A DNA stretch of 34,217 bases from Akkermansiaceae bacterium (lineage in GTDB: Bacteria; Verrucomicrobiota; Verrucomicrobiia; Verrucomicrobiales; Akkermansiaceae): positions 1-34,217 of the forward strand of contig CANHPN010000022.1 of assembly GCA_947462535.1 (NCBI GenBank). The letters are read 5' to 3'. Made by a program: the position numbers and the translations under genes. Positions within the stretch are counted from its first letter, which is position 1. Every line of letters starts with the position of its first letter. Positions 1,544 to 6,374 of this stretch are shown here, one piece after another. The notes under the pieces were generated by a model that ran no database searches, was not told the origin of the DNA, and was given only the letters and a program-made list of their open reading frames with translations.

Positions 1544-2440
1544 ATGTCCATCCTCATCGACGAAAACACCAGGCTCCTGATCCAAGGAATCACCGGCAGC
1601 TTTGGCGCTCGCCACGCATCACTTTCACTCGCCTACGGCACCAAGGTCGTCGCCGGCGTCACCCCCGGCAAAGGCGGCCAGACGTTTGAAGATGTCGTCC
1701 CCATCTTCGACACTGTCAGCCACGCAGTCAGCGAGACTGGAGCCACCGCCTCGGCCATCTTCGTGCCGCCAGCCTTCGCCGCCGACGCCATCCTCGAAGC
1801 CGCAGATGCCGGGATCGAACTCATCGTCTGCATCACCGAAGGCATCCCCGTCATGGACATGATGCGCGTGAAGGAAATGCTTAAGGGCTCGAAATCCCGC
1901 CTGCTAGGACCTAACTGCCCCGGCGTGGTCACCCCCGGCCGCGGCGAGAAAAGCCACGGCGGCTGCCGCATCGGCATCGCTCCCGGCTACATTCACAAGC
2001 GCGGCAATGTCGGCGTGGTTTCCCGCTCGGGCACGCTCACCTACGAAGCCGTCTGGCAGCTCACGCAACTCGGTTACGGCCAGAGCACCTGTGTCGGCAT
2101 CGGCGGCGATCCCATCAACGGCACCAACCACCGCGAGGTGTTGGAAATGTTCAACAACGACCCGGAAACCGAAGCCATCATCATGATCGGCGAGATCGGC
2201 GGCAACGCCGAGGTGGACGCCGCGCGCTGGGCCAAGGAGCATTGCAAGAAGCCGATCGCCGGATTCATCGCCGGTGCGACCGCGCCTCCGGGCCGCCGCA
2301 TGGGACACGCCGGCGCCATCGTCGGCGGGGAGGACGACACCGCCCAAGCCAAAAAGCGCATCCTTGCCGAGTGCGGCATCGCCGTCTCCGAGACTCCGAG
2401 CGACATGGCCAAGACCCTGCTTGAGCGCTGGGGCAAGTAA
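1544..2440 (+). CDS. sucD: Succinate-CoA ligase (ADP-forming) alpha subunit
   Basis: This CoA-binding, phosphohistidine-carrying subunit pairs with SucC. Visible motifs are the Rossmann-type [12 protein letters not shown] near residues 14-25, GVTPGKGGQ at 38-46, [11 protein letters not shown] at 122-132, and [11 protein letters not shown] with the predicted phosphorylated histidine at 255. The product is 298 residues against about 289 in E. coli. The difference is mostly a charged insert, RGEKSHGG, after residue 132 where E. coli has one residue. The insert sits directly before the conserved CRIGIAPG strand. No Shine-Dalgarno sequence is seen. The gene converges on the PDZ-protein gene 125 bases away, and no clear terminator was found between them. 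Confidence 0.97.
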
Positions 2441-2565
2441 CAACCAGGAGCGCGGAATTCAGAGTCCGCTAGCCTGGCAATGTATTCCGCCGAGCCTTAG
2501 GAGGTAAAGGGAGGATTTTGCCGAGCTCGGGTGTGAACCCATCTCCATGAAAAAATGTGGTGTGG

Positions 2566-3537
2566 TCAGTTGTCGGGGAAGCCCGGCTGGGCACCTGGCA
2601 ATATTTGCAACCTCAGACCGCCACCATTGAAGTTGGTGTCGAGATTGAGGCTTTGCACCCGCTGGCGCACGTCCTCAGGAGCTGCGGCCCGGTCCTGGGC
2701 GGTGTCCCATGGGCCGCTCCAGGTGATGTTTTCCTGATGGTCGCGGATCGTCACCTCCTTGCCTCCATCCTTGGATTTCACTTCCACGCTTCCCTGCTGG
2801 TCCTTTATCCTAACCGTTGCCGCGCCTTGGATTTGTGGCTGGTCGTTAGCTGCTTCCGGCGGCAGGAAATTTTTGCCCATGGCTCCCTCCATGCGCTTTT
2901 TCATGTCGCGAATGGCGTCCTCTATCTGCAGCCCCTCGTCTCCCAGTTTGAGATCCATTCCGCCGAGGTTGCCTTCGATGGCCTGGCGGATGCGGTCGGC
3001 CAGTTCCTTGGGCAGGCCGTCAAGATTGCGCGGATCGAGTTGTTGTGGTTCCAGGGCGGCGATCGCGGCTGGCTTGATGCCCAATGTGACATCGAGCTTG
3101 GCTTGCTTGCCCTTGTGGATGAGATCGATGGTAACGGTGTCGCCCGGCTGGTGGTTCGTGATTTCCTCCGAAATCGCCTTCGCCGATCCGATTTCACGGC
3201 CGGCGACCCGGAGGATGACGTCGTTGGTGCTGATTCCGGATTGGGCGGCCGGGCCGTCGGGGACCAATGATCTAACCAATACTCCCTCGCCGGGTTTCAG
3301 GTCGAGATGCCCGGCGAGCATTTCCGGGACATCGCCGGAGACGACGCCGAGGAAGGCGGTTTGCGCTTTTGGCGCGGGCATGTCTTCGGCTTGAAGTTTG
3401 ATTTCGGGGGGGGTGGTGTCCTTTTGTGCCGCGACGGCTGGTGGTGGCGCGTCATCCTCGGGCGCTTCGAGAGCAAAGGCCGGTATGGCCAAAGTGGCGA
3501 ACGCGACGGTGACGAATGGCAATTTGTGAGTCTTCAT
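2566..3537 (-). CDS. Secreted PDZ-domain protein (no protease domain)
   Basis: The 323-residue product has an N-terminal signal peptide (residues 1-22, likely cut after AFA). A proline- and acid-rich linker follows, then one PDZ domain at about residues 61-153, recognisable from FLGVVSGDVPEML and DGPAAQSGISTNDVILRVAG. The remainder is predicted to be partly helical (residues 165-215), then beta-rich (about 240-275). No serine-protease or other catalytic domain is visible. It is therefore probably a periplasmic peptide-binding or scaffold protein rather than an HtrA enzyme. It is the last gene of the sigma / anti-sigma-like operon, 54 bases after the second gene. This suggests that it takes part in sensing envelope state or is a product of the same response. 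The exact function is unknown. Confidence 0.8.
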   Translation of the reverse strand: MKTHKLPFVTVAFATLAIPAFALEAPEDDAPPPAVAAQKDTTPPEIKLQAEDMPAPKAQTAFLGVVSGDVPEMLAGHLDLKPGEGVLVRSLVPDGPAAQSGISTNDVILRVAGREIGSAKAISEEITNHQPGDTVTIDLIHKGKQAKLDVTLGIKPAAIAALEPQQLDPRNLDGLPKELADRIRQAIEGNLGGMDLKLGDEGLQIEDAIRDMKKRMEGAMGKNFLPPEAANDQPQIQGAATVRIKDQQGSVEVKSKDGGKEVTIRDHQENITWSGPWDTAQDRAAAPEDVRQRVQSLNLDTNFNGGGLRLQILPGAQPGFPDN

Positions 3538-3591
3538 GGCTATTTGATTGGAATCGAGGTCACCCTGGATTTTTGTTTGAAAATTTCCGGT

Positions 3592-4215
3592 TCAATCGGT
3601 TTTAGCGGGAACCAGCATGTAATCGACGCGCGGCTGCTCGACTTGGAAGGTTCTTCCGTTAGCATCCCTGAGCGTGATCAAATCCTTGTAAACGACGCGG
3701 ACCAAGGTGTGCGGCTGGTTGTTGGATTTCCAGACGACTCCTTCATCATGGACCTCGCTCAGCCTGCGGTTGAAACTGGCGGGAGCGAAATTCGGATTGG
3801 CGGTGCTCGTGACAGGCGGCGATACCTTGGTCACCTGACGGGTGGGATTCACGGGGCCTTTAGTCGAGGGGACCATGAGCGCGGTGACGGCACCGATCAC
3901 TGCGACGGCTGCGGCCGCGCCCCAGATCGGGCGTGGTCTGCGCGCGCGGACGACGGCCTTCGGGAATAGCAGGATTTTCTGGTCCACAGGGAAGGGGACT
4001 TCGCTGACGATAGATTCCAGCCTCGCCAGGAATCGCGGTGAGGGCGCGGCCGGTGAAGATTTGCGGAGCAGCTCTTCGAAGTGGATTTCTCCGGGGCCGA
4101 GCCGCGTGAGCGTTCCGTCGGCGGCCGCTTCGAGCCGTGCCAGCAGGGCTTCGTCGAGCACGGCGGCATGAAGTTCGCGAAGGTCCGCTTCGAGGGATGG
4201 CTGGTCAGGAGTCAT
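3592..4215 (-). CDS. Putative membrane anti-sigma factor
   Basis: The 207-residue product has a cytoplasmic N-terminal part of about 95 residues rich in short helices. One transmembrane segment follows at about residues 96-114 (IWGAAAAVAVIGAVTALMV), preceded by a basic RARRPRP stretch that fits an N-in orientation. The C-terminal part of about 90 residues would be periplasmic. The zinc-binding HxxxCxxC motif of the ZAS anti-sigma family is absent, so the assignment rests on topology and position: it starts 19 bases after the ECF sigma gene on the same strand. The periplasmic end has a short beta-rich stretch (VRVVYKDLITLRDANGR). A membrane sensor of another kind is possible. Confidence 0.65.
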   Translation of the reverse strand: MTPDQPSLEADLRELHAAVLDEALLARLEAAADGTLTRLGPGEIHFEELLRKSSPAAPSPRFLARLESIVSEVPFPVDQKILLFPKAVVRARRPRPIWGAAAAVAVIGAVTALMVPSTKGPVNPTRQVTKVSPPVTSTANPNFAPASFNRRLSEVHDEGVVWKSNNQPHTLVRVVYKDLITLRDANGRTFQVEQPRVDYMLVPAKTD

Positions 4216-4234
4216 GAAGGCTTGCTAAATTAAG

Positions 4235-4831
4235 TTAGATTGAAAGGTCGCCGCGGCGGCGGGCATTGGCGAGGTTGCGCTTGAGGGCTTCAAGTCCATA
4301 GCGATACCGCGAGGCCGCCGTGTTTTGGGAAACTCCGAGAATTTCACCGATCTCGGCGAAGGTGCGCTCTCCCCAGATTTTCATGGTGATGACTTCGGCG
4401 AATTTCGGAGGCAGTTCCTTGAGGCTTTTTTCGAGCTGGTCGCGGGTTTCGTCGTCCGAGGAATCGCTTTCGAACCATGGATTGAACGCGTCGAACTGGC
4501 CAGTCTCGGCGTCGGCACCGACGTTGTCCTCGCGGCGTTTCCGGCGGTCGTCGCGGCGGCTCAGGTCGATGGCGAGGCGGCGGATGGTGGTGTAAAGATA
4601 CGACTGCCAAGCTTCCTGTCCGCCGACGAATTCGCCCGAGCGGACTTTTTCCACCAGCTTGACGAGCGCGTCCTGGAAGACGTCTTCCGCATCTCCATGG
4701 GAGCGGGTTTGCTGGCGGGCGAAGAGCAACAGCTTAGGGCTGTGTTGTTCCAGCCACTCACGCCAGGCGGAAGCGGCTGGCGATGCTTCGGAGACTTCTG
4801 TTAGAGATGCCATGGGGGTGTCTTCGTCCAT
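4235..4831 (-). CDS. ECF-type RNA polymerase sigma factor
   Basis: This 198-residue protein has only sigma regions 2 and 4, as in ECF (group 4) sigma factors. Region 2 spans about residues 30-98 with the core-binding GDAEDVFQDALVKLVEK and the -10-recognising helix QSYLYTTIRRLAIDLSRR. Region 4 spans about residues 133-188 with LPPKFAEVITMKIWGERT and the helix-turn-helix FAEIGEILGVSQNTAASR. An acidic linker of about 35 residues joins them. It is the first gene of a three-gene minus-strand operon with a membrane anti-sigma-like protein and a secreted PDZ protein. That order is typical of a cell-surface signalling or envelope-stress switch. The start could also be the ATG six codons downstream. 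Confidence 0.9.
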   Translation of the reverse strand: MDEDTPMASLTEVSEASPAASAWREWLEQHSPKLLLFARQQTRSHGDAEDVFQDALVKLVEKVRSGEFVGGQEAWQSYLYTTIRRLAIDLSRRDDRRKRREDNVGADAETGQFDAFNPWFESDSSDDETRDQLEKSLKELPPKFAEVITMKIWGERTFAEIGEILGVSQNTAASRYRYGLEALKRNLANARRRGDLSI

Positions 4832-4893
4832 ACAGCGGAGCGGGTGGCGGGATTTGTCTGTGGGTTGGAAACTAAACCCCGCTCAGGGCCGGA

Positions 4894-5358
4894 TCAAGGT
4901 TTCCATCCGGCGAGCTTGCAGGCGCGCTTAAAATGCAGGGGATCGACCGGGTTGATCGAGAGCCGGGTGCCGCGCTGGCAGACCATCATTTCGGAAAGCA
5001 GCGGGTCCGCCTTGATCGCTTCGAGCGTGAGCATTCCGGGGAATTTCCCGACGAATTCGAAATCGGTAAGCCACCAACGGGGATTTTCAGGCTTGGATTT
5101 GGGATCGTGATATTCGCTTTTCGCGTCGAACTGCGTGGGGTCCGGGTAGGGGACTCCGACGACGCGGGCGATGCCGGTCACGCCGGGCGGCTTGGCGTTC
5201 GAGTGGTAGAAAAGGGCGAGGTCGCCGGGCTTCATTTCTTTCCACATGAAATTCCGTGCCTGATAGTTCCGGACGCCGCTCCACGGCTCGCGTTCGACCT
5301 TGGCGAGGTCGTCGATGCTGAAAACGTCGGGCTCGGATTTGATCAACCAGTGGCGCAT
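4894..5358 (-). CDS. EVE-domain protein
   Basis: The 154-residue single-domain protein matches the EVE (PUA-like) family, related to thymocyte nuclear protein 1 and to YTH domains. The start MRHWLIKSEPDVFSIDDL, then WSGVRNYQARNFM, GDLALFYHSNAKPPGVTGIA and FPGMLTLEAIKADP, are hallmark segments. EVE domains are thought to bind modified bases in DNA or RNA; the ligand here is unknown. The start codon lies 5 bases after the lipA stop, so it is probably translated from the lipA message. The link to lipoate synthesis has no obvious biochemical explanation and may be only transcriptional convenience. Confidence 0.9.
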   Translation of the reverse strand: MRHWLIKSEPDVFSIDDLAKVEREPWSGVRNYQARNFMWKEMKPGDLALFYHSNAKPPGVTGIARVVGVPYPDPTQFDAKSEYHDPKSKPENPRWWLTDFEFVGKFPGMLTLEAIKADPLLSEMMVCQRGTRLSINPVDPLHFKRACKLAGWKP

Positions 5359-5363
5359 GGCGG

Positions 5364-6374
5364 TCAGGCGATGGCTTTGACGAGGCCCGGATGCGGCGAG
5401 GGCAGGGCGAGGTGCTCGGGTCCGAGTTCGAGGCCGCGGGCGGCGCGGACATCGGCTTCGATCGCTTCAAGGACATCGAGCTCCGGGCGGAAATTCGCCG
5501 CATGATAGGAACTGCGGACCAGCGGGCCGCTGGCGACATGGCGGAAGCCTTTGGCGAGCGCGATGGCTTTGTATTCGTCGAAGGCGTCGGGCGTGATGTA
5601 TTCCACCACGGGAAGATGTTTCTGGGTGGGGCGCAAATACTGGCCCATGGTGAGCACCGTGACGTCGTGGGCGAGCAGGTCGTCCATGGCGCGGAGGATT
5701 TCCTCGTGGCGCTCGCCGAGTCCTAACATGATGCCGCTCTTGGTGGCAACCTTGTTGTTGACCATGGCCTTCGCCTTCTTCAAGACGGTGAGGCTGCGCT
5801 GGTATTGGGCGCGCGAACGGACGAGCGGGGTGAGGCGCTCGACGGTTTCGAGGTTGTGGTTGAAAATGTGCGGGCGGGCTTCCATCACCATGGCGAGCGC
5901 CCAGTCGCGGTCGTTGAAGTCCGGCACGAGCACCTCGATGATGATCTCCGGATTCGCCTGGCGGACGGCTTCGATGGTGAGTTTGAAATGCTCGGCTCCG
6001 CCGTCCCGCAGATCGTCGCGGGCGACGGCGGTGATGACGACGTGGCGCAGATTCATCCGGCGGGTGGCCTCGGCGACGCGGGCCGGTTCGTCGGACTCGA
6101 GCGCGTCGGGCTTGGCGGTTTTCACCGCGCAAAATCCGCAGGCGCGGGTGCACTTGTCGCCGGCGATCATGAAGGTGGCGGTGCCTTGGCCCCAGCATTC
6201 CCAGCGGTTAGGGCACTGCGCTTCCTCGCAAACGGTGACTAGTTTCAAGTCGGTGATCAGCGACTTGGTTGACCAGAACGCAGGATTGTTCGGCAATTTG
6301 ACTTTGATCCAGTCCGGCTTTTTTTCCCGGTGCAAAGTCGGATCCATCTTCATTTTCGGCCCACAGCTACTCAT
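5364..6374 (-). CDS. lipA: Lipoyl synthase
   Basis: This radical SAM enzyme inserts two sulfurs into the octanoyl group on lipoyl carrier domains, making lipoate for pyruvate and 2-oxoglutarate dehydrogenases and the glycine cleavage system. The 336-residue product has both iron-sulfur signatures: the auxiliary cluster motif CEEAQCPNRWEC near residues 50-61 and the SAM-cluster motif CTRACGFC near 76-83. The C-terminal RSSYHA provides the serine ligand of the auxiliary cluster. The N-terminal segment (KPDWIKVKLP) is typical. The ATG at 6372-6374 gives about 20 residues before the conserved region; an ATG five codons further in is also possible. It is divergent from murI, with a tandem repeat between them. 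Confidence 0.97.
   Translation of the reverse strand: MSSCGPKMKMDPTLHREKKPDWIKVKLPNNPAFWSTKSLITDLKLVTVCEEAQCPNRWECWGQGTATFMIAGDKCTRACGFCAVKTAKPDALESDEPARVAEATRRMNLRHVVITAVARDDLRDGGAEHFKLTIEAVRQANPEIIIEVLVPDFNDRDWALAMVMEARPHIFNHNLETVERLTPLVRSRAQYQRSLTVLKKAKAMVNNKVATKSGIMLGLGERHEEILRAMDDLLAHDVTVLTMGQYLRPTQKHLPVVEYITPDAFDEYKAIALAKGFRHVASGPLVRSSYHAANFRPELDVLEAIEADVRAARGLELGPEHLALPSPHPGLVKAIA

Follow-up and report, generated by a model that had tools for sequence, protein, structure and literature searches.

The described systems closest to the locus examined in the current study are RpoE-RseA-RseB of Escherichia coli with the proteases DegS and RseP, AlgU-MucA-MucB-AlgW of Pseudomonas, and CnrY-CnrX-CnrH of Cupriavidus. 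AlgW is a protease and is encoded away from AlgU-MucA-MucB. Promoters of extracytoplasmic function (ECF) sigma factors consist of two boxes at a fixed spacing. AlgW and DegS, both envelope-stress sensors, have PDZ domains of the HtrA type, as do DegP, DegQ and MucD. The roles of the parts of RpoE-RseA-RseB-DegS-RseP, including that of RseB, are set out in PMC4598750, and this, together with PMC7406223, describes class I anti-sigma domains as having four helices and class II domains (CnrY) as having two. The locus itself lies in a contig of an Akkermansiaceae bacterium (phylum Verrucomicrobiota; assembly GCA_947462535.1, contig CANHPN010000022.1), of which the whole stretch of 34,217 nucleotides (nt) analysed is referred to as the window. 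Its open reading frame (ORF) list and translations show three minus-strand genes at nt 2566-4831, encoding an ECF sigma factor, a single-pass membrane protein (the middle protein) and an exported PDZ protein.

We consider it likely that these genes form an autoregulated envelope-signalling switch made up of a sigma factor, a membrane anti-sigma factor and a periplasmic PDZ protein. A preliminary description, made from the sequence alone, had named the same three co-directional genes, the second lacking the zinc anti-sigma motif and the third a protease domain, and this composition is confirmed by the ORFs, by matches to TIGR02937 and PDZ_2, and by the absence of the motifs HxxxCxxC and G[DN]SGG, respectively, from all 105 sets of relatives compared.

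Conservation of the three-gene unit

Related loci were found by searching with the middle protein, and linkage is thus counted from the side of that protein only. On this basis the PDZ gene adjoins the middle gene at 112 of 113 loci and the sigma gene does so at 111 of 113, in at least three orders of Verrucomicrobiota. Such linkage is far beyond chance, and the three genes are a conserved unit. The preliminary description had made its proposal depend on the gene order recurring in relatives, which these counts bear out.

In the first set of loci (L001-L030) the middle gene is immediately preceded by the sigma gene in 30 of 30 cases and immediately followed by the PDZ gene in 29 of 30; the one exception lies at a contig end. 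In L057-L104 the PDZ gene is beside the middle gene in 48/48 and the sigma gene in 46/48. All three genes are present in L121-L134 (14/14) and in L204-L223 (20/20, including two genomes outside the class), as well as in a paralogous locus of the same genome, L048. Some genomes are represented twice among the 113 loci (four were fetched twice: L057, L059, L061 and L062); leaving out these four duplicates, L009, L090, L103 and the repeat L126 gives 105 distinct triples. Locus L027, which has an internal stop within the middle gene, was omitted from alignment A1, and the longer piece of its middle gene was kept among the 105.

By protein search the middle protein was detected in 60 of 99 related genomes, i.e. 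in 58 of 61 genomes of the genus (own genome included) and in 2 of the 38 genomes that represent the order's other families. A profile search raised this to at least 77 of 239 genomes of the order, and a more diverse profile matched at least 60 of 387 genomes of the phylum, among them genomes from further orders within the class; both figures are lower bounds, as 8 or 12 candidates were scored per genome, and profile matches near E 0.001 may be chance. The diverse profile gave three matches outside the class, one of them merely at E 6.6e-4. Genus g21, of the same family, had no match to the first profile in the 20 genomes listed and four matching genomes with the second, and the two g21 loci inspected (L204, L205) each carry the whole unit.

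The sigma factor and its promoter-like sites

The sigma factor (198 amino acids (aa); nt 4235-4831, minus strand, as are all features of the unit described below) scores 90.5 bits against TIGR02937 (cut-off 42.9), and Pfam regions 2 and 4 are matched above their cut-offs with no region 3 listed, which identifies it as an ECF sigma factor. In a phylogenetic tree, 81 sigma factors of the module group together to the exclusion of five other ECF sigma factors of the same genome (support 96/75), the comparison set being those five of nine loci tried that gave a usable match, all of them long branches. The main ECF classification is reportedly that of Casas-Pastor and colleagues from 2021, and it may already list this sigma group, which the preliminary description had suggested might be an undescribed ECF family.

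An alignment of the regions upstream of the sigma gene revealed a two-box motif, RACAA-N16-CGCT. The PDZ gene is preceded by this motif as well, the middle gene never. In the window it is represented by P1 (GACAA-N16-CGCT; nt 4834-4858; GACAAATCCCGCCACCCGCTCCGCT), immediately 5' of the sigma gene, and by P2 (AACAA-N16-CGAT; nt 3553-3577) within the intergenic spacer that precedes the PDZ gene, a match to relaxed patterns only. Across L001-L030, the pattern RACAA-N15..17-CG[ACT]T was found before 25/30 sigma genes, 22/29 PDZ genes and 0/30 middle genes, with 16 other matches in 213,170 nt, both strands counted. The fixed-spacing motif gave 24/40, 17/42 and 0/42, respectively, in L063-L104 (six of which are from the genus), and 49 matches in total in 374,788 nt. 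When the distinct triples were scored with RACA[AG]-N16-CG[CT]T, those of the genus had the motif before 32/37 sigma genes, 23/37 PDZ genes and 0/37 middle genes, and the others before 33/62, 16/62 and 0/62. As the motif was first read from genus loci, the non-genus loci are the fairer test. A reversed-pattern control matched before the sigma gene in 2/37 genus and 1/62 other triples, and before the PDZ gene in neither group.

A second, diverged copy of the unit is present on contig C7 of the same genome (L048, G000:C7:17000-23500), with all genes on the minus strand (sigma at 3655-4182, middle protein at 3198-3668, PDZ gene ending at 2453). Its sigma factor is 38.6% identical to that of the window over residues 17-187, and forms a single clade with those of relatives L206-L210 (100/100). 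None of these six paralogous modules has the CGCT form of the motif (0/6); instead, GACAAA-N14-GCATT occurs once per locus in 6/6, and directly before the sigma gene in L048 and L206-L209. The paralogous modules retain the -35 half and differ in the -10 half. Since the motif is found at both genes, and its -10 half is changed in the paralogous modules, P1 is probably where the sigma factor initiates transcription of its own operon, and P2 a separate start from which it transcribes the PDZ gene.

Two in-frame ATGs are present at the start of the window sigma gene, at nt 4831 and 4813 (18 nt apart), and the latter may serve as an alternative start. Of the 49 loci in which the motif precedes the sigma gene, 39 show an in-frame ATG no more than 8 nt from the -10-like box, and in 33 an ATG follows the box at a distance of 12-30 nt; as listed, both ATGs occur in 25 loci, the early one only in 14, the later one only in 8 and neither in 2. 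With an early ATG this close to the box, the message would be nearly leaderless.

In many members of the genus (L005, L008, L016 and others) P2 lies inside an inverted repeat, TACTACGCTTATAGTA, which is absent from the corresponding gap of the window (nt 3538-3591). A longer pattern built on this repeat matched in 34/61 genus genomes (reversed control 8/61), and a few of the matches lie elsewhere than at P2. The repeat could be an operator, an mRNA hairpin or an overlapping promoter. Scans of nt 2400-5400 for sigma-70-type promoters and for terminators returned no more than did shuffled sequences.

Another copy of the motif (L137, G000:C6:75607-75631, plus strand) is situated 8 nt before a GTG-started ORF of 428 aa, and the gene ahead of this ORF is presumably secG-like. 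Four close genomes have the same site, though with spacers that differ, and it is a possible further target of the sigma factor.

The PDZ protein

The product of the third gene (323 aa; nt 2566-3537) matches PDZ_2 at 55.1 bits (cut-off 27), and PDZ families are the only ones found in Pfam at E<=1; an RseB-type domain was not found at the same threshold. Its hydrophobic N-terminus, ending AFA-L, was read by eye as a probable signal peptide (residues 1-22, nt 3472-3537). The PDZ domain (residues 58-155, nt 3073-3366) is of the HtrA type by both structure and sequence matches. The top structural match is AlgW with a decapeptide (Z 17.4, root-mean-square deviation (rmsd) 1.2, 100 aligned residues), followed by DegQ (Z 16.0), MucD (15.9) and DegS with a YQF peptide (15.8; rmsd 1.4, 93 aligned), these three being tied. 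No protease domain was found in Pfam, the NCBIfam HtrA models match just the PDZ part, and the serine-protease motif G[DN]SGG is absent (0/105), so the protein is not an HtrA protease. A carboxylate-loop-like motif is correctly placed in the PDZ region of 98/105 relatives, as judged by a loose anchored pattern; this count replaces an unanchored one (103/105), which could have matched elsewhere in the protein. Towards the C-terminus the model shows a conserved domain of four strands and two helices (residues 240-297, nt 2647-2820) with no match in Pfam.

Plasmid relatives of the protein number 90 records, none of which reaches 80% query coverage, and 12 of the 15 listed are annotated as Do or DegQ-type proteases. 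Elsewhere in the same genome are two neighbouring pairs of HtrA-like PDZ proteins (C2:18322-19961 and C62:13408-14968), one of the C62 matches crossing a stop codon. The genome also encodes, away from the unit, an RseP-type site-2 protease (C2:72310-73638, 225.6 bits) and a DegP-type protease (C49:4460-5776, 479.6 bits), both above cut-off; these could serve a proteolytic step.

The middle protein, a proposed anti-sigma factor

The middle protein (207 aa; nt 3592-4215) is a single-pass membrane protein according to its ORF, hydrophobicity, model and alignments. Its most hydrophobic 19-residue stretch (residues 97-115, nt 3871-3927; Kyte-Doolittle 2.19) is taken as the transmembrane helix, and separates a cytoplasmic part (residues 1-76, nt 3988-4215) from a periplasmic beta domain (residues 140-207, nt 3595-3798) that reaches the C-terminus (PRVDYMLVPAKTD). 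The cytoplasmic part consists of two tandem helical hairpins, recognised from alignments and model. In an alignment of 30 diverse sequences, the hairpin unit LExxLRxLxPAxLxxxLLxRLE is present in two copies in 10 and in one copy in 20; similarity is seen between the two copies, and between these and the single copy that distant members have (hhalign probabilities 56, 85 and 73%; P 2e-5 to 7e-7). An AlphaFold2 model has two helices per hairpin copy, i.e. four cytoplasmic helices in the window protein (at modest confidence), a helix at the membrane stretch with a predicted local distance difference test score (pLDDT) below 50, and a three-stranded outside domain. The outside beta domain is kept across the order (probability 99% in a profile comparison). 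The middle protein would bind the sigma factor, with the hairpins as its putative anti-sigma domain.

A Pfam scan of the middle protein yielded no family at E<=1; scans of 30 relatives gave 12 families at E<=0.1, none of them anti-sigma by description, the lowest E values being those of CwsA (0.00086, 1 member) and DUF3379 (0.0013, 2 members). The zinc motif HxxxCxxC occurs in 0/105 relatives, and the protein therefore is not of the zinc-binding anti-sigma (ZAS) type. A faint resemblance to the NCBIfam model NF052375 ('anti-sigma factor') was seen, at 18.9 bits for the window protein, well below the cut-off of 100; nine of the 30 members match it weakly (best E 5.2e-5). Library scans of the protein and its 30 relatives found no known enzyme or transporter family, the other outcome that the preliminary description had named as fatal to its proposal. 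Sequence searches gave no credible solved relative (best E 0.43 and 0.21), CnrY was rejected as a relative because 30 of 100 shuffles equalled its hhalign score, and no link of the module to defence was found.

The C-terminus of the proposed anti-sigma factor falls at the same model position in 97/105 proteins, compared with 58/105 for the sigma factor and 8/105 for the PDZ protein, in models built partly from the same sequences that were counted. It is from this fixed C-terminus, and from the loop of the PDZ domain, that the idea of the PDZ groove holding the anti-sigma tail derives; such a contact may exist.

Gaps and flanking genes

The sigma and middle genes are separated by 19 nt in the window, and the middle and PDZ genes by 54 nt; across L001-L030 (L027 excepted) the corresponding gaps are 11-56 nt and 27-100 nt. 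Downstream, and convergent with the unit, is a gene which we take to be sucD, and the upstream neighbour is presumably an EVE-domain-like gene. Within the short flanks available, the EVE-domain-like gene precedes the operon in 15 of the 30 genus loci and sucD is found in 1 of 30. The constant part of the locus is the three genes, not the flanking neighbours.

Proposed mechanism and alternatives

In the switch that we favour, the middle protein would hold the ECF sigma factor inactive at the inner membrane by way of its cytoplasmic helical hairpins. The periplasmic beta domain would be the signal-receiving end and the secreted PDZ protein its soluble partner. Envelope disturbance, most likely in the form of exposed C-termini of unassembled envelope proteins, may compete for the PDZ groove, and the changed contact between the PDZ protein and the anti-sigma factor could lead to the latter being cleaved or altered, freeing the sigma factor. 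Once free, this would transcribe its own operon, starting at P1, and would independently transcribe the PDZ gene, starting at P2; the extra PDZ protein might then amplify the response or shut it off. Of this scheme we observe the genes and their conserved order, the membrane layout as read from sequence, the type of PDZ domain and the two conserved promoter-like sites, with their changed -10 half in the paralogous modules. What we infer comprises the binding of the sigma factor, the use of P1 and P2 by this particular sigma factor, direct contact between the PDZ protein and the anti-sigma factor, the nature of the ligand, a step of proteolysis, and whether the feedback is positive or negative. 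According to the promoter data, the sigma factor probably controls the PDZ gene as well, so the PDZ protein may be an output or a feedback element as much as a sensor. The preliminary description had envisaged a signalling chain in which a periplasmic PDZ protein reads envelope peptides and influences the sigma factor, an interpretation that is partly supported.

A broader version of the same idea would see a phylum-wide ECF system in which a free-standing, non-protease PDZ protein is the sensor, gripping the anti-sigma tail until displaced by the C-termini of unassembled envelope proteins, and in which the anti-sigma domain is an unclassified short hairpin, duplicated in some lineages. We regard this, taken as a whole, as unlikely.

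Several observations weigh against the favoured switch. In L090 and L103, no sigma gene was recognised beside the middle and PDZ genes in the fetched stretch. Among the non-genus loci the motif is missing before the sigma gene in 29/62 and before the PDZ gene in 46/62, and the P2 of the window itself has CGAT where many relatives have CGCT, so that it is counted under relaxed patterns only. Nor is the motif in excess genome-wide: RACAAA-N15-CGCT has 9 matches in the window's own genome against 11 for the reversed pattern, and 1010 against 1092 over 61 genus genomes. The visible regulon is accordingly the module itself. The AlphaFold2 model of the middle protein is weak (pLDDT 66, predicted template modelling score 0.29) and resembles no solved fold convincingly (Foldseek best E 0.08, VIA-align best Z 4.8), in a fold search that barely tested the helical part, since the VIA-align rows listed cover mainly residues 125-207. 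The last residue of the anti-sigma factor is D in 36/37 and H in 1/37 genus proteins, not the classical hydrophobic PDZ-ligand type, and is hydrophobic in just 23/68 non-genus proteins. By sequence, the closest solved relatives of the PDZ domain are a DegP-like protease (E 9e-17) and MucD, neither a dedicated sensor. Finally, a coevolution test by partial correlation, for which just 25 of the 105 triples were usable, did not favour the expected pairs, the values being 0.29 for antiC with PDZ given sigma, 0.42 for antiC with sigma given PDZ, 0.05 for antiN with sigma given PDZ and 0.31 for antiN with PDZ given sigma.

The closest affinity of the PDZ domain by sequence being to DegP-like proteases, the PDZ protein could be purely an output, i.e. 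a sigma-induced envelope chaperone or client binder that never touches the anti-sigma factor, which would sense for itself or be cut by DegP- or RseP-type proteases. A sigma-type promoter of its own at P2 and the HtrA and RseP proteases encoded elsewhere in the genome are consistent with this. Against it, genomes of great diversity strictly preserve the linkage with the anti-sigma gene, which exceeds the needs of a mere target, and all six paralogous modules have a PDZ gene although their motif appears in each a single time, before sigma; we regard a pure output role as improbable. Also improbable, if slightly less so, is a role as an RseB-like cover, shielding the anti-sigma factor from site-1 cleavage and overproduced after activation to end the response. 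The order sigma/anti-sigma/periplasmic partner is that of rpoE-rseA-rseB (the role of RseB being taken from PMC4598750), and a sigma-type promoter stands immediately 5' of the partner gene, but a PDZ domain occupies the place of the RseB-type domain.

Two further alternatives touch the favoured switch at its base. The absence of a Pfam match, the uniform weakness of the 12 families matched by any of the 30 relatives, and the failure of CnrY to score above shuffles would all suit a middle protein that is simply a membrane-envelope protein sharing the operon. Its place beside the sigma gene at 111 of 113 loci, its single-pass layout and the weak matches of 9/30 members to an NCBI anti-sigma model speak for an anti-sigma factor instead, and we hold the alternative to be highly improbable. 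The promoter-like sites might likewise be binding sites of another regulator, given the operator-like appearance of the inverted repeat around P2 in many genus members; two boxes at fixed spacing before both genes, and a different -10 half shared by the six paralogous modules, make this very unlikely.

Significance

Verrucomicrobiota live in large numbers in water, in soil and in the gut. Judged from titles and the starts of abstracts among the best literature matches, a unit of ECF sigma factor, single-pass protein and PDZ protein has not been described, and none of the matches combined ECF sigma, Verrucomicrobia and PDZ, or Akkermansia, ECF sigma and anti-sigma, or Verrucomicrobia, anti-sigma and PDZ. 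Envelope-stress signalling by such a unit in Verrucomicrobiota was likewise not described among the literature matches listed. The unit recurs across the phylum with recognisable promoter-like sites, and exists in at least two paralogous types that share a -35 half and have different -10 halves, which makes sigma specificity and insulation directly testable. If the PDZ protein is indeed the sensor, the reading of envelope peptides would here be separated from proteolysis, two functions that are combined in DegS and AlgW.

Comparison with described systems

The unit shares with RpoE-RseA-RseB and DegS/RseP of E. coli an ECF sigma factor, a single-pass (proposed) anti-sigma factor and a periplasmic partner. 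DegS has an HtrA-type PDZ domain like the one found here, and a relative of RseP is present in the same genome. It differs in having no RseB domain and a middle protein that, over 30 members, matches no Pfam anti-sigma family; and while DegS carries PDZ and protease domains together, the PDZ domain of this unit belongs to a soluble protein that has no protease domain. The likeness to the Pseudomonas AlgU-MucA-MucB-AlgW system lies in the PDZ domain, for which that of AlgW is the top structural match, but the PDZ gene here belongs to the sigma unit.

CnrY-CnrX-CnrH of Cupriavidus, as described by its annotation and in PMC4598750 and PMC7406223, is also a set of three genes encoding an ECF sigma factor, a small anti-sigma factor whose cytoplasmic part is short and has two helices, and a periplasmic sensor. 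In contrast to that system, the middle protein has no similarity to CnrY above shuffles, a PDZ protein stands in place of the metal sensor CnrX, and the gene order is different. The four predicted cytoplasmic helices of the window protein recall the class I anti-sigma domain (ASDI), but here they appear as a two-helix unit repeated in tandem, a single copy of which is present in 20 of 30 diverse sequences, and the zinc motif is absent from all 105. The size of a single copy would fit class II, yet as its sequence was not found to be related to CnrY we do not assign the middle protein to that class. By analogy, the module may work like RpoE-RseA-RseB-DegS and CnrYXH, and it is placed under neither.

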